A DNA stretch of 14,985 bases from a bacterium (GTDB taxonomy: Bacteria > SM23-31 > JAUVVT01): positions 1 through 14,985 of the forward strand of contig JAUWXV010000069.1 of NCBI GenBank assembly GCA_030616165.1, written 5' to 3'. The notes under the pieces were generated by a model. The model made no database searches. It saw only the letters and a program-made list of their open reading frames with translations, and was not told where the DNA came from. A program made the translations under genes and the position numbers. Of this stretch, positions 2,956-13,837 are shown piece after piece (position 1 is the first letter of the stretch; the number at the start of each line of letters is the position of its first letter).

Positions 2956-4923
2956 TTATATTACCTCTAATTTTACTTCATTTTCATCAGATGATAATTT
3001 AAAAAGATATTTGCTATTTCCTCTTATATCTAAAGATTTACGTATTTCTTTGGAATATTCTGCTGGAGTGAATAATAAGATTATTTGTTTATTGTTACTA
3101 ACTTCAGAAAAAATATTTCCTAAATTTTCTCTACTTTCATCAGAAACTCTTGCAACAGGAGTATCTATTAAAATAGGTGCATCAAAACCAGAAATTTTAT
3201 GAAGTGCTATTGTAAAAGATAAAGCTAAAAGTTCTCTTTCAGCTGCGCTTATTGAACCTAAACAGGAATATCCCATTGAATGAATTAGATCAATATCGTA
3301 ATCATCAGAAATGTTAATATCGTGAAAAGTCTCTTTTTTCCATATAAGTTGGAAAAATAGCTTCTTTGTCTCTGATTCTATTTTTTCTTTGGTTTTTTTC
3401 ATTATGAATTCTTTTGTTTTTCTAACAACATACAGTGATCTCTCACAAAAACTAATTTTTTTTATCAACTCTTTTGATCTTTTTTCTCTAGTAATTTCAT
3501 CAGTGAATCTCTTATGTAGAGCATCAATATCCTTCTGCAGATTCTTTTTCTTCTCTTCTAATACTCCTAAACTTCGATGATTTTTTCCAGATTGTTCTTC
3601 AAAACTTTTCTTTTGATTATACAACTCTTTTATTTTTTCAGGTGCGTAACCAATTTGATTTTTCTCTATTAGACCTTTCCTCTTTTCCATTTTTTCTAAC
3701 TCTTTTTCATAGTATGTAATATCGTCATTGAGAGTTTTCATTTTTTCTTTAAATTGCTTAATTTTATCCCTGTAAATAAGTAGTGGGTTTTCCATATTAG
3801 TGAGCTGAAGAGAAATATCTGACGATAATTTAATCTCTTGTAACAATTCTTTTACTCGACTTTCTGATTTAGTGTTCAAAGGGGTTCCACAGATATTACA
3901 AACTTTGTCTTTCAGAATATTTTCTAATAAAATAGGATGAGCTATAGGAGGGATCTCTTTATTTTTCTTTTTTTTCCTAATTATTTCTATAGATTTTTCA
4001 ATGACTGGCCAAAGCCTTAAAATTATTGCAAATTCAAATAGTAAGTTCTGCTTATCTTTAATCTTTCTCTTTCTTAGTTCTTTGTTGTGGTTTATGCTTG
4101 TTTTTAATTTTAATATTTCTTTATTACCTTCTTCTAAATCTGGAGTTCCCTTTAATTTACTATCAATCTTTCTTAATCCTTCATTTGCTGTTTTAATTTG
4201 AATTCTGCAATTTTCTATTTGTTTATCAACATTTTCAAGTTGTTCATTAGCACTCTCTAACTTATATCTAGTTTCTTCTATTTCAGGATTTAACTTCCCT
4301 GCTTCTCTTCTAAACTCCTTTAAAATATCTTCTAACCTTGGTTCTATTTTATTCTCTATTAATTCAATCTGAGATATCACAATAATTGCATGTCGTATAT
4401 TCTGTGCAGTGGCTTCTCTGAAATAATTGTCTAGTCTTTCACCATCAAAAAAGAAGAATTCCCTTATCCCCCTTGGAACAATGCGCTCTACATAAGAAAT
4501 AGCATCATCCGCATTTAACAATTCTGTATTACCTTTGTCATCAGTAACTTTAGCTTCAAATTCAGTAAGTTGGTGCGAAGGCTCTTTTTCACTTTTGTGA
4601 ATTGTATAAACAGCTCTTCTAGAAAATATAATATATTTTTTATTTTCCGCGCTAAATTGGACTTCAATCATTAGTTCTATATCATCTCCATCTTCTGCTT
4701 TTTTAATAGAGTTAAGATTTAAAATGGGCAATTGTTTTGAAGTTTTAGATAAATGTGGTTCTTCATTATAAAGGCACCAATTAATAGCATTTAAGAGATT
4801 CGTTTTGCCAGTACCATTTCTACCTATAGCAAAATGTAAATCATTATCGTACTTTCTATTGAATGTAATTTCTAATTCTTTAAATTGACGATAATTTTGT
4901 AATTTTATATTTTCAATTCTCAT
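2956..4923 (-). CDS. DndD-like SMC/Rad50-type ATPase with zinc hook
   Basis: This is a 655-aa protein when started at ATG 4921-4923 (MRIENIKLQNYRQF), which has GGAG eight bases upstream; GTG 4932 and ATG 4929 are alternatives. It has an N-terminal ATPase half with Walker A GRNGTGKT (34-41) and the diagnostic FFFFDGERLD (156-165) seen in DndD-like proteins. A charged coiled coil follows, interrupted by a CNIC zinc-hook motif (342-345), then a second coiled coil. The C-terminal half carries a signature-like SAAERELLALS (559-569) and Walker B ILIDTP (584-589). Such ATPases bind DNA ends or load partner enzymes. DndD proper helps DndC/DndE insert sulfur, but neither partner is present here. The start overlaps the upstream 65-aa gene by 11 bases. 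Confidence 0.85.
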   Translation of the reverse strand: MRIENIKLQNYRQFKELEITFNRKYDNDLHFAIGRNGTGKTNLLNAINWCLYNEEPHLSKTSKQLPILNLNSIKKAEDGDDIELMIEVQFSAENKKYIIFSRRAVYTIHKSEKEPSHQLTEFEAKVTDDKGNTELLNADDAISYVERIVPRGIREFFFFDGERLDNYFREATAQNIRHAIIVISQIELIENKIEPRLEDILKEFRREAGKLNPEIEETRYKLESANEQLENVDKQIENCRIQIKTANEGLRKIDSKLKGTPDLEEGNKEILKLKTSINHNKELRKRKIKDKQNLLFEFAIILRLWPVIEKSIEIIRKKKKNKEIPPIAHPILLENILKDKVCNICGTPLNTKSESRVKELLQEIKLSSDISLQLTNMENPLLIYRDKIKQFKEKMKTLNDDITYYEKELEKMEKRKGLIEKNQIGYAPEKIKELYNQKKSFEEQSGKNHRSLGVLEEKKKNLQKDIDALHKRFTDEITREKRSKELIKKISFCERSLYVVRKTKEFIMKKTKEKIESETKKLFFQLIWKKETFHDINISDDYDIDLIHSMGYSCLGSISAAERELLALSFTIALHKISGFDAPILIDTPVARVSDESRENLGNIFSEVSNNKQIILLFTPAEYSKEIRKSLDIRGNSKYLFKLSSDENEVKLEVI

Positions 4924-5110
4924 CGTCATCACTCCATTTCTCTAAATATTCTTTTATTTTTTGTTTATAAGTTTCCTTCCAATGCCAATGACCTGAATAT
5001 TCAGCTTCCTTATAAATGATGTCAATTAAAAAATTTTCTATCTTCTTATCATTTTTACAGATTTCTTTTATACATTTTAATATTTGCTCATTTATTCCTC
5101 CTTTACTCAT
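4913..5110 (-). CDS. Small acidic operon protein with GHWHWKETY motif, unknown function
   Basis: This 65-aa protein (MSKGGINEQ... ending WSDDDEN) consists of predicted helices with the aromatic motif SGHWHWKETYKQKI at 38-51 and an acidic tail. I place the start at ATG 5108-5110 because GGAGGG at 5116-5121 sits five bases upstream; an in-frame longer start at 5143 would lie inside the helicase gene without better support. The gene overlaps the helicase stop (ATGAGTAA, 8 bases) and the ATPase start (11 bases), the arrangement expected of subunits made in fixed ratio. I do not recognise a named family. The conserved-looking aromatic and His residues suggest a binding or adaptor role, which is inference. 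Confidence 0.8.
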   Translation of the reverse strand: MSKGGINEQILKCIKEICKNDKKIENFLIDIIYKEAEYSGHWHWKETYKQKIKEYLEKWSDDDEN

Positions 5111-7232
5111 TTTTTCCCTCCAAGTATTTATTTTTAATTTCAAAAATTAATTTTAAAGCTTCAGCACCATTGTTGGCTATTTTGGCGATTTCCATGTATC
5201 TTTCTACTTCTCTATTGAATATTCTCCATTCTATATTTATGAATTCAGGTGGTAATTTATTGAATGATGGAACTATAATAATATCATAAATAATTGCTTC
5301 CTTTTTATCTTTATATATTCTAATAACCCGTCCAATGCGCTGTATATATTCTCTGGGGTTACCACTGCTTGCCATTAGTATTGTATTCCTTGCTGGGGGA
5401 ATATCTACTCCTTCATCTAAACATTTCATTGCAACTAAAATTTGGTACTTTCTTTCTGCAAATTTTTGCAAAATAAAATCTCTTTGTGAAAGACCATTAT
5501 ACTTTTTGTGTGGTTTTATACCTTCTTTCATAGTAAAACGATGAGCAATTAGTCTCCGTTTATTAATGATATACATTATTTCATCGATTTGCTGATGGCT
5601 ACAATAAATTAATGTAAAATTAATAGGTGATTCCATTTCATTCAATATTTCTTCTAATATTTCATATTTTTTCGCGGCATTCTTTATAATATCTGCTCTT
5701 TTAAAAAGCAAATTTTCCAAGAATTTGTCTTTTTCTTCATCATTTCTTATGTTATTAAATTTCACAGCAATTGCTCTTGTTTTATTAACATATTCTTCTA
5801 ATTCTTCAGAAGTTAAAGACACAAATTTTGGCAAATAACGATAAGGAGTAAGGTAGCTTTCACCAGTATCAGGATTTTCTGCATTAAGTGCTTTTTCTAA
5901 TCCAAACTCATAGACAGTATTCCCAAAATAATTATAAATCTTATGAGTTCCAACATCATCAAACCATCGTTTTGGAGTAGCACTTAGCCCTAATCTAAGA
6001 TTATAATCATCTATAAGTCCCATTTTTCTTTTCTCTGCACCCAATCCGTGAACTTCGTCAGCAATTAAAAAAATGTCAGAATTACTTTTATTGTTTTGGA
6101 TGATTTTTTTAAAATCTTTTGAGAAAAACGTATCATGGGTTGTTAATATCAAAATTTTATTTTTATATCCCATAGAATTGTCTATCAATGAATCTGTCAA
6201 ATTGTTTTTCCAATAAGGATTAGAACTATCAGCTATAATTAAGCTTTCATAATTAATACCAAATTTATTAATCTCTCTTTTCCATTGTTGCACTAAATGA
6301 CTCTTTGGACAAGTAATAATGACTAAGAACTTTTGAGTAAATTTATTTATTTCATTTATACATCCTAAAGCTGCATAAGTCTTTCCTGTGCCTGTAGCCA
6401 TTTCAAAGAATACTTTCATACCATTTTTTAGCCAAAATTTAATAGCATCTTTTTGGTGTTGCCAAAGTTTTAATTCTTTTCTTCTTTTAATTTTATTATA
6501 CAATTTTTGTATGTTAATTTCTCCAATATCTAATGGTGCAATTTCAATAAATTTCCTTTCAACTGCTTTTGGAATTTCGATAACTTTTACTCGTAAGGAT
6601 TGATTATTCCAAAATCTATTAAATTTTGAAGTATCTGCAAGTACATAATCTTCCTCTGAGTTTTCCCAACTTCGAAATACTTTAAATTCCTCTATATTAC
6701 CTAACCATCCTGCTGCGGTTTCGTTTACTGAACCACTAAAAGTGAGGATATTGTTATTTTCATCTCTTAGTATTCCCACTTTTTGATGAAACAATCCTGA
6801 TTTATCTATATCATCAATACTTAGAATTTTATCTTCAATGCTAAATGCTATCGCAACCTTAATTTCTAATTTCTTATTTGCAATCATCCATCCTAAGGCA
6901 TATACATGGTCTCTAATAATTTCATTTTCAAATTTTTCCAATTCATCTAGCATATTTTTTTCAATATATTTTTCAGGTTCTTCATTTGAATTAATTATGA
7001 TTTCAATATCTCTTTTTGACAATTTAGGCGAAACAATTAATTTCATTGTTCCATTATTTTTAATAAGACCATAAATTCCTTTTGCAGCTACTGCCAAACT
7101 TGTTGATGAAAAAAACCCAGCTAATCTTTTATATTCAATAGAAGTTTCTAATGTAGGAATATAGAAGTCGTTTAAAATGTCATCTTCATCAGAAGAATAA
7201 GATTTTTTTAAAGAAATATCTTTAAAGCTCAT
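5103..7232 (-). CDS. PLD-like nuclease / SF2 helicase fusion, first gene of the operon
   Basis: This 709-aa protein has an N-terminal phospholipase-D-like domain (about 20-215) with one HKD-type motif: H149-x-K151 (FHQKVGIL) followed by SGSVNET (166-172). The superfamily 2 helicase core follows: Walker A MATGTGKT (278-285), DEVH box (392-395), SAT (417-419), LDEGVDIPPA (605-614) and QRIGRVIR (631-638). One HKD motif implies that two chains pair to make a nuclease site. The family reads as DNA translocation plus phosphodiester cleavage, typical of restriction or defence effectors. ATG 7230-7232 has no ribosome binding site, but a TATAAT lies only nine bases upstream, so a leaderless message is possible. 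The stop overlaps the next gene by 8 bases. Confidence 0.88.
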   Translation of the reverse strand: MSFKDISLKKSYSSDEDDILNDFYIPTLETSIEYKRLAGFFSSTSLAVAAKGIYGLIKNNGTMKLIVSPKLSKRDIEIIINSNEEPEKYIEKNMLDELEKFENEIIRDHVYALGWMIANKKLEIKVAIAFSIEDKILSIDDIDKSGLFHQKVGILRDENNNILTFSGSVNETAAGWLGNIEEFKVFRSWENSEEDYVLADTSKFNRFWNNQSLRVKVIEIPKAVERKFIEIAPLDIGEINIQKLYNKIKRRKELKLWQHQKDAIKFWLKNGMKVFFEMATGTGKTYAALGCINEINKFTQKFLVIITCPKSHLVQQWKREINKFGINYESLIIADSSNPYWKNNLTDSLIDNSMGYKNKILILTTHDTFFSKDFKKIIQNNKSNSDIFLIADEVHGLGAEKRKMGLIDDYNLRLGLSATPKRWFDDVGTHKIYNYFGNTVYEFGLEKALNAENPDTGESYLTPYRYLPKFVSLTSEELEEYVNKTRAIAVKFNNIRNDEEKDKFLENLLFKRADIIKNAAKKYEILEEILNEMESPINFTLIYCSHQQIDEIMYIINKRRLIAHRFTMKEGIKPHKKYNGLSQRDFILQKFAERKYQILVAMKCLDEGVDIPPARNTILMASSGNPREYIQRIGRVIRIYKDKKEAIIYDIIIVPSFNKLPPEFINIEWRIFNREVERYMEIAKIANNGAEALKLIFEIKNKYLEGKNE

Positions 7233-7698: not shown

Positions 7699-7776
7699 AA
7701 GAGAAATTTGGGAATGGGGATTGAACCGCGGAGGCGAAGGGCAGGTATTCAGGGATGAGACGGATTATGTAAATTT

Positions 7777-7799
7777 GGGGATACAATACTTATTTATTT
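7777..7799 (+). mobile_element. Solitary end of the RAYT-like element
   Basis: GGGGATACAATACTTATTT followed by ATTTTTATTT matches the outer end and subterminal T-rich stretch of the element at 12691 (TCAGGGACAGAATACTTATT). No matching second end or inner transposase codons are found before the serine hydrolase gene, so this is a single diverged terminus. Confidence 0.5.
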
Positions 7800-7866
7800 T
7801 TATTTAAATTTTTTAAATATATAAATAAAATGATTTATTTTAAAACAATTTACTTAATTATTCATT

Positions 7867-9765: not shown

Positions 9766-9807
9766 AATCCCTCCCAAAATTTTAAGATTAACAGACTATA
9801 TAAATTT

Positions 9808-9948
9808 AATATTTATTTTTTTTTATTTTCTAATTTTCTTCCCCGTTTTTTTGGTGAAAGCATGCGTCAAATACTCTTGCCAATCCTGCCATGCGAAAAT
9901 GTATGATTATCTAACTATATTGTAAATAAATAAGTATTGTGTCCCTGA
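9808..9948 (-). mobile_element. Element A: internally deleted RAYT/IS200-like transposon relic
   Basis: One end is AAATAAGTATTGTGTCCCTGA (9928-9948); the other end has lost its last bases but keeps AATATTTATTT (9808-9818), aligned without gaps to element B over 37 bases. On the minus strand it reads ATG-MAGLARV (9892-9872), the usual opening of REP-associated tyrosine transposases. Almost at once, in another frame, RMLSPKKRGRKLENKKK and a TAA (9866-9813) follow, resembling the basic C-terminus of such transposases. About the first seven and last eighteen codons remain, so it is non-autonomous. Family assignment is from memory of these termini. It sits 43 bases upstream of the serine hydrolase start and could influence its promoter. 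Confidence 0.6.
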
Positions 9949-9980
9949 GATACAGTTACTCAAATTCCTATTTCCTACTA

Positions 9981-12188
9981 TCAAATCCGAAATAAATAGC
10001 TTGCTTTGAAGAAAAAGCTGCGTTTTGTATTGAACATATAACCTTGTTTATACTGCCATTGGTTGTTTAACCATCTTCTATTTTCATAGAGAGCGCCGTA
10101 TCCTACGTGAAGTACGGTGCCAGGTATGAACGTGAACGAAGATAGAAAGTCTGTGAGCATCCTTTTCTGGTAGCTGTTATACTGAATAATACTCCTGATG
10201 AAGAAATATTTGTTAAATTGATATGTAGTTCGGGAGTTTATTATGTTAATATCATAGATTTTTTCATTATCTTTGTAGAAATCAATGTAAGAAAATCGAA
10301 AAGATTGGTTAAGTTTTGTATTAGGCTGAAGTGTGAATGAAAATCCGCCTCCATGACTATTCCCTTTGTAGGGCGGATCAGCATCGTAGTTTATACTTCC
10401 ACCTTTGCGGAGTGCTATACCCAATCTCAGCCACTTGGTTATCTGAACTCCACTTTGAAAAAAAAGTTCAGTCATATCGAAGGTTTGATTTTTCCAGCTC
10501 TCACTGCTTCTAATATATTCAATATTTACATAACCCTGTTTTGTAAAATTGAACTTTAGTTCAAAAACTAAACCTCTGTCATCCATATTGGTATTGAGGT
10601 CATGAACATATTGATATGCAACACGAGGAGTGATTCGCTTAAGCCACGGGACTTTTTGGGGGCTGGGGTAGAAATTTGTATTAATACCTCCAGTTATATC
10701 ATTAATGCCTGTGCGTCTCATAAAGGCAGAATCCATTCTGAAATCTTTACCGATGTGGTCAAAAAGAAAAACGATAAATAAGGGTTTTGTATCATATATA
10801 TACCCAAAGTTTAAGTAATAACTGCTTGTGGAGGATTCTTCTTCGGATTCCCTGGAAACAGACTGTATAAATGATGTTGAAATCCGTTGATTTTTAAGAA
10901 ATCTGTAACCGAAATCTGCTCCTGCAGTTCGGTTGTATCCGCCGGCAAATTCCCGCCCGCTGTAAAGTCCTCCTATAAAATTTTCCTGACCGAGACTGTG
11001 TTTTCCTCTTGCTACTGTGAAGTACGCATTTTTCCCTTCATTGGGATTGGTGTCTTCTTCCCATACTCGGCCTGGCGATTTATCTCCAGCGGAAAGGACG
11101 CCAAAGGAAGTTTTACCTGCTGTTCCTGTCAATTTTAATCCCCAGAGAGGGTTAACAATCCTTCGTGTATGGACGGCAGTGCTGAAATAGTCAGACATAG
11201 TGGAAAAATTAAAAATATCTGTACCTTCCATAAAGAAGGGACGTTTTTCGCTGTAAAATACAGGGTATCGCTGGTTAACTTCAACTTGAAAGGCATCGCT
11301 TTCCACTTGGCTAAAATCAGGATTTACAGACAATTCTGATGTTATAGCAGAGGTAATTCCGCACTTTAATCCAATTCCAATATCTTTAAATGAATCTCCT
11401 TTGTCCCATTTTTGGGGCTCGATTCTTTCAGAGTTGCTGCCAAAGGTCAAACTTGGAAGCATCTCCAGTTTGAGAGGTGAATCGAGGTTTTTATAGATTA
11501 CGTCTGTATGGATATTAAATATACCAATTCCCGGTTTTAATTCGGGCCAAGAGCCTTTCAAACTCAGTCGGTTGATTTTTCTCCAGAAGAGTATGCCCAT
11601 TTTAACTTCATTACCGCTTTTAAAACTGATGCTTTTCAGAGGGATTTTTATTTCAGCATCGTATCCTTCGTTAGTTATTCTGTCGGCGCTTTCCCAGATA
11701 AAGTCTGGTGATATATTCTCACCGCCGACAGCAGAATTTAAAATGTCTCCTTGAATACCATTCGGATTAACAAAAAAATCATAAGCACTCTGTTTGTTTC
11801 CTAATGCATCGAGAGAAAATCCAATCCAATCATCATTAAAGATATTATCTCTTTTTGTGATAGATGTTTTGATTTTATTCGGCTCTGTATCTAAGCATTT
11901 GAAGGCAAAATAGAGATTTTTGCTGTCGTAAGCCATCCAGATTAAAGTCTTTTGCGGAAGAATATCACCATAAGTTGGATTATAGGTTATAAAATCTTTT
12001 TCCATAGCTGCGTTTTTCCAGATTGCATCATCCAGGATGCCATCGATTTCAGGAGGTGAAGAAGCCATCGGGGGATGCAAAATTTCGCCTTTTTCCTTTA
12101 TGGTCTTTGCGGAAATAATGGTCGGCACTGAAACCATAAATATAATGAATTCAATTATTACAGTTAGGGCAAATAATTTTTTCACCAT
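9981..12188 (-). CDS. CBM9-like / DUF5916 outer-membrane beta-barrel protein
   Basis: This 735-aa protein has a signal peptide (about 1-27, MVKKLFALTVIIEFIIF...ISA). A CBM9-like beta-sandwich domain follows (about 40-235), with EIDGILDDAIW near 47-57 and NDDWIGFSLDA near 118-128. The long C-terminal part (about 240-735) alternates short polar and aromatic strands, contains the YPVFYSEKRPFFMEGTDIF segment near 310-328 typical of DUF5916 proteins, and ends in SYLFRI, close to the aromatic C-terminal signal of outer-membrane barrels. It is likely an outer-membrane protein; the ligand or substrate is unknown. ATG 12186-12188 was chosen because the signal peptide follows directly; only a weak AAAGAA precedes it. 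It is probably a single-gene unit. Confidence 0.87.
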   Translation of the reverse strand: MVKKLFALTVIIEFIIFMVSVPTIISAKTIKEKGEILHPPMASSPPEIDGILDDAIWKNAAMEKDFITYNPTYGDILPQKTLIWMAYDSKNLYFAFKCLDTEPNKIKTSITKRDNIFNDDWIGFSLDALGNKQSAYDFFVNPNGIQGDILNSAVGGENISPDFIWESADRITNEGYDAEIKIPLKSISFKSGNEVKMGILFWRKINRLSLKGSWPELKPGIGIFNIHTDVIYKNLDSPLKLEMLPSLTFGSNSERIEPQKWDKGDSFKDIGIGLKCGITSAITSELSVNPDFSQVESDAFQVEVNQRYPVFYSEKRPFFMEGTDIFNFSTMSDYFSTAVHTRRIVNPLWGLKLTGTAGKTSFGVLSAGDKSPGRVWEEDTNPNEGKNAYFTVARGKHSLGQENFIGGLYSGREFAGGYNRTAGADFGYRFLKNQRISTSFIQSVSRESEEESSTSSYYLNFGYIYDTKPLFIVFLFDHIGKDFRMDSAFMRRTGINDITGGINTNFYPSPQKVPWLKRITPRVAYQYVHDLNTNMDDRGLVFELKFNFTKQGYVNIEYIRSSESWKNQTFDMTELFFQSGVQITKWLRLGIALRKGGSINYDADPPYKGNSHGGGFSFTLQPNTKLNQSFRFSYIDFYKDNEKIYDINIINSRTTYQFNKYFFIRSIIQYNSYQKRMLTDFLSSFTFIPGTVLHVGYGALYENRRWLNNQWQYKQGYMFNTKRSFFFKASYLFRI

Positions 12189-12395
12189 CTCTATTCTTTC
12201 TATTTTTAATAATTTTATTTCATTTTCGTTTAATAAGACATATCAAACTAAAAAAATCTTTCAAAAAACATAAAATTTATATAATTTATTTGTTAAAAAG
12301 TAATTTGATAAAAATCAGTATAAACTATGTTAGATTTGTGACATTTTGGGTGGCGGTTGCTGGTGATTTCTGTTGAATAGTTATTGATACGATAA

Positions 12396-12433
12396 AAAAG
12401 ATTCCTTTTTTATAAGTGCAAAAGAAATCTTTT
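12396..12433 (+). promoter_or_regulatory. 5'-leader hairpin directly before a strong ribosome binding site
   Basis: AAAAGATTCCTTTT (12396-12409) pairs with AAAAGAAATCTTTT (12420-12433) at 13 of 14 positions around a 10-base loop. Two bases later comes GGAGG (12436-12440), nine bases before ATG 12450. The stem does not hide the ribosome binding site but abuts it, so it could protect the message 5' end, bind a protein, or be a weak terminator. There is no intrinsic U-tract after the stem beyond its own TTTT. Confidence 0.45.
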
Positions 12434-12449
12434 ACGGAGGTGAAAAAAA

Positions 12450-12656
12450 ATGGAAAAATTAAAATTAATTCCGCAAACAAAATTTGAGAATAATAAAGAA
12501 CCGGTGATGATACAGTATTTAGATGCAGAATGTATTGGGAAAACTTTGAATGATTTAATAAAAAGTATAGAAAAATTAAAAGATAAGATAAATGAAATTG
12601 AGGATAGAATAGAAAGACACATTCATACTTACGATGACTTAGCGCATAAGATATAG
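12450..12656 (+). CDS. 68-aa helical protein of unknown function
   Basis: The gene has an excellent ribosome binding site (GGAGGTG at 12436-12442) and starts MEKLKLIPQTKF. Residues about 29-62 form a strongly amphipathic, charged coiled coil (LNDLIKSIEKLKDKINEIED...), ending HIHTYDDLAHKI. It has no signal peptide, no Cys and no DNA-binding motif that I recognise. It is the only plus-strand gene in the right half, flanked by the divergent DUF5916 gene and the transposon relic at 12691, which begins 34 bases after its stop. It could be a small structural or regulatory oligomer. I make no functional claim beyond coiled-coil self-association. Confidence 0.7.
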   Translation: MEKLKLIPQTKFENNKEPVMIQYLDAECIGKTLNDLIKSIEKLKDKINEIEDRIERHIHTYDDLAHKI

Positions 12657-12850
12657 ACTTTTTCAAAAAATTTAAATAGTAAAGTGAAATTCAGGGACAG
12701 AATACTTATTTGTTTTTATTTTTTGGTTTTCTTCCCCGTTTTTTTGGTGAGGGCATGCGTGAAAAGAAAGAATTAGGAGTTAGGAATTAAGAGTTACGTT
12801 AGCTTAGCGAGGAAGAACAGTTTCGACAGTGTGATTTTGCTCTAAATGGA

Positions 12851-12870
12851 GGGCGATTCGTGAATCGCCC
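12851..12870. repeat. GGGCGATTC hairpin nested in element B
   Basis: GGGCGATTC (12851-12859) and GAATCGCCC (12862-12870) form a perfect 9-bp stem with a 2-base loop, followed by CTACAA. It is the same style as the hairpin at 1211-1231 and in inverted orientation relative to its TGTAG flank. Confidence 0.65.
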
Positions 12871-12905
12871 CTACAACATAAAATGAAAAACTATTATTTT
12901 AAAGA

Positions 12906-12946
12906 GGGCGAACCCTCCATAGGCGGGCAAGCACAGGGGTTCGCCC
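12906..12946. repeat. GGGCGAACCC hairpin with an inserted GGGCAAG cassette in its loop
   Basis: GGGCGAACCC (12906-12915) pairs perfectly with GGGTTCGCCC (12937-12946), followed by CTACAA. The 21-base loop holds CCATAGGCGGGCAAG, which resembles the cassette that interrupts the CACAG repeats elsewhere in the window. Confidence 0.6.
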
Positions 12947-13017
12947 CTACAATCGTGCTATGCGAAAGTGTATAATTTTATATACATATTATCAAGAAAT
13001 AGGTATTGTGTTCCTGA

Positions 13018-13189
13018 ATTCCGCATAACATTTCCACAGGACTTTTAAAGCATTTAGAACGGCTTTCTGCTGAAAATCCCAGAGGATTTTATTACTTGAA
13101 AAGTAATCCAGATCAAATGAATTCCAATTAGACGGCAAATCCTCAAATCTTAAATCTTTAATTATATCCTGCAAAAATACCCTAATCAT
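13018..13189 (-). pseudogene. 5' fragment of a helicase (type III restriction Res-like) gene, cut off by element B
   Basis: ATG 13187-13189 opens a frame reading MIRVFLQDIIKDL, then FSSNKILWDFQQKAVLNALKVLW at about residues 30-52. That second phrase resembles the Q-motif-like region just before Walker A in DEAD/DEAH restriction helicases (xxLWDFQQKAxxNAxxxL). After codon 57 the frame runs into the inverted end of element B and stops at 12992. No Walker A or later motif survives. The ATG overlaps the hepT stop (ATGA), so it was the last gene of the mod-mntA-hepT-res row. Assignment to Res rests on this short stretch plus context. Confidence 0.6.
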
Positions 13190-13536
13190 TGTTTTTTAGT
13201 TTCCTCATCTATTATTTCTTTAATTTTTGAGATAACATTTGGAAGCTCATTTTTAACTTGCCACACAATATCGTAATTAATCCCGAAGTAATGATGTATG
13301 ACCTTATCTCTTAATCCTGCAAATTTTCTCCATGGGATTTGTGGATATTTCTTCTTTACATAAGCTGATATATTTTTTGCTGCTTCTCAAATAATTTCAA
13401 GATTACGAATAACAGCATCTTGAGTTTTTCTGTCTTGGGAAAAGTCATCAAAGCTTAATCCTTGAGTGTATAGAGTTATTAACTCTATAGCCTCAACAAT
13501 ATCACCAAGATAATCAACATTTCTTCTTTTAGGCAT
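13186..13536 (-). pseudogene. hepT: hepT toxin gene (HEPN/DUF86 RNase) with one nonsense codon
   Basis: From ATG 13534-13536 the frame reads MPKRRNVDYLGDIVEAIELI and continues to a stop at 13186-13188, 116 codon positions, the usual HepT length. Codon 50 is TGA (13387-13389) in NLEII-stop-EAAKNIS, where the family has Gly (IIGEAA); one G-to-T change explains it. The HEPN catalytic RDKVIHHY (Rx4HxY, about 76-83) lies after the stop, so a truncated product would lack it. The ATG overlaps the end of mntA by 8 bases, the usual arrangement in this toxin-antitoxin family. Loss of the RNase toxin is harmless to the cell. A sequencing or assembly error at this base is the alternative. Confidence 0.85.
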
Positions 13537-13837
13537 ATATCAAACTCTTTTCAATATTTTCAGCGATATGTTTATACCTTGGATTTTTAAAACAATCAAA
13601 AGTAGCAATATCAACTTTTTTACCCAATAAATCCTCAAGATGGTATGCAAGTTCCATAAAATCGAGACCTAATGGCTTTTTAAGTTCAACTAAAATATCT
13701 ACATCGCTTCTTTTTCTCTGCAAGCCTTTGGTGAAAGAGCCAAAAATGGCAATTTTTTCCACCCCGTATTTTTCACTTAAATAAGGATGTTCTTTCTTAA
13801 GAATCTCAATGATTTTTTTCTTTGTAAGAATCTTCAT
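13529..13837 (-). CDS. mntA: MntA-type nucleotidyltransferase antitoxin
   Basis: This 102-aa minimal nucleotidyltransferase has the nucleotide-binding GSF (33-35) followed by SDVDILVEL with metal ligands D45 and D47, and a likely third Asp in KKVDIAT (D76). Known MntA proteins neutralise the partner HepT RNase by attaching AMP to the Tyr of its Rx4HxY motif. Here that partner is interrupted by a stop codon, so MntA may now be an orphan. It starts nine bases after the remnant methyltransferase gene and overlaps hepT by 8 bases, so all were co-transcribed. The protein looks complete and has no missing motif. Confidence 0.88.
   Translation of the reverse strand: MKILTKKKIIEILKKEHPYLSEKYGVEKIAIFGSFTKGLQRKRSDVDILVELKKPLGLDFMELAYHLEDLLGKKVDIATFDCFKNPRYKHIAENIEKSLIYA

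Follow-up and report, generated by a model that had tools for sequence, protein, structure and literature searches.

What are the short repeated elements carried by this contig, and from what did they arise? The stretch of DNA analysed here (hereafter the window) is 14,985 nucleotides long and is contig C81 of a 3.74 Mb draft genome that is ~90% complete and in which repeats often lie at contig ends. It holds two short elements with inverted ends, A and B, and a solo end (Table 1), which an initial annotation proposed to be internal-deletion derivatives of a RAYT-like transposase. From the data presented below, they are very probably decayed, non-autonomous, MITE-like copies of a TIRYT/TIRtron, in which the middle of the transposase gene was deleted, the ends were kept, and one deletion product spread.

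That A, B and the solo end share repeated ends is evident from the 21-mer TCAGGGACANAATACTTATTT, for which the genome contains 51 matches with three or fewer mismatches, versus none for the reversed pattern, and from the identities of 88% and 79% between A and B at their two ends. An exact match to this 21-mer forms the left end of A and another the right end of B. A DNA search of the genome with an A-like query recovers 45 stretches at E<1e-6. An Rfam search of the window yields no match. The terminal inverted repeats (TIRs) of A and B carry an AGGGACA variant of the core, and copies elsewhere in the genome that contain GGGGACAC (C306:1166, C8:1579, C259:795 and C24:950) conform to the motif GGGGWSAS.

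Table 1. Features of elements A and B and of the solo end, in window coordinates.
Feature	Position	Strand	Remark
Solo right-end remnant (AAATTTGGGGATACAATACTTATTTATTTTTATTT)	7771..7805	+	86% identical over 35 nt to the matching end of B
Element A, miniature TIRYT derivative, ~147 bp	9802..9948	-	junction common to eight other genomic copies
A, C-terminal codons	~9820-9863	-	
A, transposase start codons	~9872-9892	-	
A, left-end TIR	9928..9948	-	0 mismatches
Element B, longer derivative, both TIRs	12687..13021	-	whole-element ssDNA fold z = -2.98
B, right-end TIR (C-terminal side), includes the parent's TAA stop	12691..12711	+	
B, C-terminal codons and stop	~12705-12760	-	
B, interior: GTAG-tagged palindromic repeats of another family (GTAGGGGCGA..TCGCCCCTAC) and other filler	12771..12950	.	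read from sequence
B, N-terminal remnant, ATA replacing ATG	~12945-12965	-	
B, left-end TIR	12997..13017	-	2 mismatches

The right repeat of A is shortened by 8 bp that read GTGTCCCC in element orientation; AAATTT is left outside. Therefore, A has a single complete end, and its outer boundary lies near position 9802 rather than at 9808. Both elements keep the last transposase codons (RM-x-SPKKRGRK...), and the TAA stop indeed falls inside the AAATAAGTATTGTG repeat. The companion claim that both also retain the first codons holds for A, which preserves the start ATG-GCA-GGA-TTG-GCA-AGA-GT, but not for B, where the region reads ATA GCA CGA TTG TAG and thus lacks a start codon. The N- and C-terminal codons of A are in different frames, and no fused peptide is therefore encoded. 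Because palindromic repeats of another family occupy its interior, B is not simply a longer A; four other copies carry a similar block in place of the deletion junction described below. The GTAGGGGCGA..TCGCCCCTAC palindromes constitute an unrelated repeat family, with similar blocks present in sister copies on other contigs. The solo end is of the right-end type (C-terminal side).

Two other regions of the window are of separate interest. Positions 2956-7232 (minus strand), together with 1261-2954, give PADLOC matches to PbeC (E 1.2e-184) and PbeA (E 2.2e-228), and these genes form a candidate anti-phage defence cluster that adjoins a B12-binding/radical SAM gene. Positions 13200-13837 (minus strand) encode a small MNT-type nucleotidyltransferase (NTP_transf_2, PADLOC PDC-S09), just downstream of which a putative interrupted HEPN-type partner frame was recognised by eye.

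The arrangement of copies in the genome indicates how A was produced and dispersed. Nine copies of ~150 bp (A and those on C103, C135, C275, C8, C306, C217, C259 and C86) have one junction in common, GGCAAGAG/TATTGGACGCATGC, and their flanks are unrelated, with no similarity outside the element. A single junction common to nine copies at unrelated sites points to one deletion followed by spread. In three composite copies (C204:13878, C204:15938 and C60:2588), a complete element of the first subfamily is preceded by the left end and opening codons of a second subfamily; the two in C204 and the one in C60 have their inner junction in common and differ in their flanks. An independent deletion of the same kind is present in a second genome, where G036:C207:20443-20779 consists of nt 1-154 joined to nt 580-766 of the full-length element of G036:C67. 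Genomes G045, G038 and G092 yielded, besides the query locus, mainly end-length matches and a few internal stretches, with no coding-end deletion like that of G036.

It is conceivable, though we consider it clearly the lesser prospect, that the main present role of the repeats is that of transcribed hairpins (terminators or mRNA stabilisers), in an old fossil family without recent movement. Consistent with this view, the genomic copies are 72-96% identical to the query, so many must be old, and no intact parent with matching ends was found in this draft genome, an absence that we also count against the main explanation. However, a fossil family leaves the origin of the repeats unexplained, and the unrelated flanks and the composites require past mobility. 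Since this alternative concerns present function, it is also compatible with descent from a TIRYT. Far less credible is spread by segmental duplication or repeat recombination instead of transposition. Copies are clustered at several loci (C204, C339, C60 and C317), as such processes would produce, but the nine same-junction copies are dissimilar outside the element, and the presence/absence difference between genomes G071 and G098 discussed below is bounded close to the TIRs.

Descent from a TIRYT/TIRtron is supported by larger decayed copies of the same genome, which carry Y1 transposase sequence between such ends. At C24:950-1388, the TIR TCGGGGACACAATACTAATTATT accompanies ~95 N-terminal Y1 transposase codons (MARLARVIAPGYPHHVIQRGNRRQ...) with one internal stop and a basic tail, PRKRGPK; this protein starts MARLARVIAPGYPHHVIQRGNRR... 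and has a related TIR. At C339:~1069-1380, the N-terminal half of a Y1 protein is joined to MLSPKKRGRKLKNKNK, which corresponds to the SPKKRGRK tail. Intact relatives in genomes G045 and G036 are ~220 residues long, are 68-69% identical to the C24 fragment, and have inverted GGGGACA ends with the stop codon usually in or near the right repeat. Their C-terminal tails read LIPKKRGRKFKKQ or SRKTGPKPKKGN before the stop. The catalytic part of the transposase is absent from A and B.

The predicted type of parent (a MARLARV start, a PKKRGRK-like tail and a stop in the end repeat) therefore exists, as evident from C24 and the intact relatives, and these together with C339 bear out the proposed derivation of the short elements from a Y1/RAYT-like transposase by internal deletion. 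Contrary to the initial suggestion, A and B by themselves do not show how the copies arose, since the intermediates C24, C339 and G036 are needed. The search for a full-length copy with these ends returned decayed Y1 copies here and intact relatives elsewhere, with no intact copy in this genome. Reconstruction of the parent is accordingly partial, with the inner part of the SPKKRGRK subfamily coming only from the fragment at C339. The intact Y1 genes on C283, C302, C51, C268 and C182 were rejected as parents because none has these ends.

These larger copies also speak to whether the elements might be MITEs of a classical DDE insertion sequence in which the transposase-like codons are coincidental. 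Inverted terminal repeats and a high copy number would suit that origin. However, Y1 sequence is recognisable, correctly placed and oriented, in copies whose ends are related, and the genes framed by GGGGACA TIRs in the intact relatives encode Y1 transposases, such that a DDE parent, already largely refuted by C24 and C339, is very improbable. Least plausible of all is that selection maintains the ends as small genes or peptides. The opening and closing codons can indeed be discerned in many copies, but the N- and C-terminal parts do not lie in one frame, the start codon has frequently disappeared, stops and indels are found, and third positions show no concentration of substitutions. Divergence at the first, second and third codon positions is.104/.071/.084 for the C-terminal segment (25 copies, 7 with gaps) and.143/.088/.064 for the N-terminal segment (13 copies). 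Without a third-position excess, the retained codons are not under coding selection.

The decayed copies can be assigned to a known kind of element through the intact relatives of their parent. All eight aligned relatives match Pfam Y1_Tnp and NCBIfam REP_Tyr_transpos, six of the eight match profile NF033573 (IS200 TnpA), and the closest solved structure is TnpAREP 4er8 (E 1.4e-8). Residues N59, H60 and H62 and Y119, E121, N123 and P124 are invariant in the alignment. The HUH and Y motifs of subclass 2.1 (NHVH and YIELNP-like) are present in the relatives and partially in C24 and C339. According to Di Nocera et al. 2013 (PMC3733652), TIRYTs are Y1 genes flanked by GGGGWSAS TIRs, the unit being termed a TIRtron, and dispersed TIR families, dimers and some self-complementary TIRs are described. 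Quentin et al. 2018 (PMC6006769) place most TIRYTs in TnpAY1 subclass 2.1 and report no REP-like structures beside them.

The relatives examined here likewise encode a RAYT-related Y1 HUH transposase framed by GGGGWSAS inverted repeats, with TIRs rather than GTAG REPs flanking the gene. The parent is therefore a TIRYT/TIRtron of TnpAY1 subclass 2.1, a sister kind to the GTAG-REP RAYTs, and the elements in the window are non-autonomous members of this known kind. The initial assignment to RAYTs must be amended in this respect, because TIR flanks with GGGGWSAS mark TIRYTs/TIRtrons (PMC3733652, PMC6006769). By inspection, the ends of the aligned copies and relatives carry no GT[AG]G tetranucleotide at the foot of a palindrome, which rules out a RAYT/REPtron in the strict sense. 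The TnpA of IS200/IS605 also belongs to the Y1 HUH family, and this group is ruled out by the motif YxExNP in place of Y---Q and by the presence of inverted terminal repeats. As short, multicopy TIR elements with no working gene and with an autonomous relative, the window elements resemble bacterial MITEs of autonomous origin (ERIC, NEMIS, Nezha), but their parent is a transposase of the Y1 single-strand type.

To gauge how general such ends are, we collected 89 loci with a gene for a relative, 80 of them named contigs spanning many phyla and 9 from other genomes. A TIR pair with a recognisable core frames 62 of the 89 genes; in the remaining 27, some of them cut by contig ends, no such TIR was detected. 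In 42 of the 62, no more than 25 nt separate the stop codon from the outermost core base. The sequence TTGAC[AT] occurs after the left core in 15 of the 62 elements, compared to 1 of 62 at the right core and 0.57 expected, and the best -10 match, in those elements that have a good one, is located 5-6 nt upstream of the ATG. Thus, a promoter at the TIR is limited to a minority of elements. Among the loci inspected, L197 (Pseudomonas aeruginosa plasmid NZ_CP116719) carries two near-identical TIRYT genes (3001-3693 and 5300-5992) with AAAGGGGACAGATTTATTTTCCCTACT TIRs, located between small cassettes of a toxin/immunity-type array. At L001 (G000:C182, ~1200-2290), a Y1 gene lies within a long array of CCCGAGCCTGGGGACAGGCTCGGCTACGG palindromes, which contain GGGGACAG, the core also present in the TIRs studied here.

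In many elements, the sequence outside GGGGACA pairs with the adjoining inner sequence, as in AATATGG[GGACAGAGA]CCATATT (L064, G029), GAAATAGG...CCTATTTC (L151 right end, Aminicenantes) and CAGTTT...AAACTG (L120 right end, Accumulibacter). When arms were swapped among elements, the mean longest stem fell from 4.24 to 3.67 (sd 0.12) for left ends and from 4.15 to 3.65 for right ends, with 0 of 2000 shuffles as high in either case. When the set was restricted to a single protein per 60%-identity cluster (n=25), the observed value was reached in 1 of 2000 shuffles for left ends and 4 of 2000 for right ends, although shuffling leaves some relatedness and few sequences remain below 55% identity. 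The terminal repeats thus behave statistically as short hairpins. This claim derives from the arm-swap test and not from folding energy, which taken by itself is weak. Counting against it, single TIR hairpins are weak, often with 4-6 A/T pairs, and a reversed-arm control scores nearly as high on left ends. In whole-element folds, B (Table 1) and the C103 copy (z -2.94) stand out, whereas A (z -0.27) is no better than shuffles and the C135 and C275 copies do not stand out.

Another genome, G071, contains one intact TIRtron (TIR ATAATTTGGGGACACGTACCTAATTAT) along with many bare inverted TIR doublets. The 13 doublet loci that were retrieved are 72-117 bp long, and in some of them a further TIR is nested. 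AATT is located 1-2 nt outside all 27 retrieved cores, preceded by G in 21. One doublet (C151:18070-18150) is missing at the orthologous place in the congener G098, where the gene end and the downstream sequence are collinear and the intergenic sequence is too diverged for an exact boundary. An AATT-like tetranucleotide occurs at both outer edges, and this sole empty site is too diverged to distinguish a target duplication from TIR sequence. No empty site was found for A or B. Searches in the genus of G047 returned only G047, those with the P. aeruginosa plasmid TIRYT copies gave just two other plasmid records, each with part of the element, and a phage collection gave one weak match. At L062 (G038:C1), both ends of an intact TIRtron are inverted TIR pairs of ~50-70 bp, and REPIN-like doublets thus lie directly beside a full-length gene.

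As with REPIN/RAYT systems, short inverted doublets of a terminal motif are dispersed alongside a transposase gene. Unlike REPINs, which have GTAG at their ends, these elements have GGGGACA and an AATT-like outer arm, and the intermediates contain coding remnants. The G071 doublets and B are therefore analogues of REPINs in architecture without being GTAG-tagged doublets, and A is not such an analogue.

These observations suggest a course of events for the TIRYT-derived copies. The parent was a ~220-codon Y1 HUH transposase gene between inverted repeats of ~20-25 bp built on GGGGACA, the right repeat carrying or adjoining the stop codon and the left repeat, in a minority of relatives, abutting a sigma-70-like promoter. 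Deletion of the gene middle left both repeats with the adjoining first and last codons, and because the repeats can be served in trans by a transposase, one such product (~150 bp) spread. Insertion of other repeats and joining of ends from two subfamilies gave further derivatives. By analogy with the known chemistry of TnpAREP and IS200/IS605 (PMC8266576, PMC6006769), the copies were probably moved as single-stranded DNA by a TIRYT protein that reads each TIR as a hairpin. This protein would come from an intact element, not found here and possibly lost or unassembled, and may nick near the AATT-like outer arm and move anything between two inverted TIRs. The outer arm, to which the inner arm is matched, may represent the cleavage or target site.

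In the proposal of Bertels & Rainey 2011 (PMC3116915), REPINs originate from the REPs on either side of an autonomous ancestor. An origin of REPIN-like repeats from a transposase gene and its flanks has therefore been put forward, and the stepwise view was not found in the available portions of the literature examined. Internal deletions that keep both coding ends are not described in the available text of PMC3733652 and PMC6006769, and coding-end intermediates and TIR arm covariation are not described in the accessible parts of the literature examined, which did not include Bertels 2017 (five RAYT groups). According to Quentin et al., subclass 2.1 has no nearby REP-like structure, whereas the TIR arms studied here co-vary as short hairpins. 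We speculate that REPIN-type systems can evolve from a transposon-like form and that TIRtrons are this form, although we regard this as doubtful at present. The TIRs would then be REP-equivalent hairpins, with a conserved GGGGACA loop and co-varying arms, the inner half reading an outer half that serves as cleavage or target sequence, and internal deletion in steps would lead first to coding-end MITEs and finally to bare TIR doublets.

Decayed near-complete copies and coding-end deletions, plus the intact elements and bare TIR doublets of related genomes, can now be lined up as a series. With full-length, shortened and ends-only forms present in related genomes, the origin of miniature repeats becomes testable, and the hairpin result hints at a similar mode of end recognition by TIRYT and RAYT proteins.
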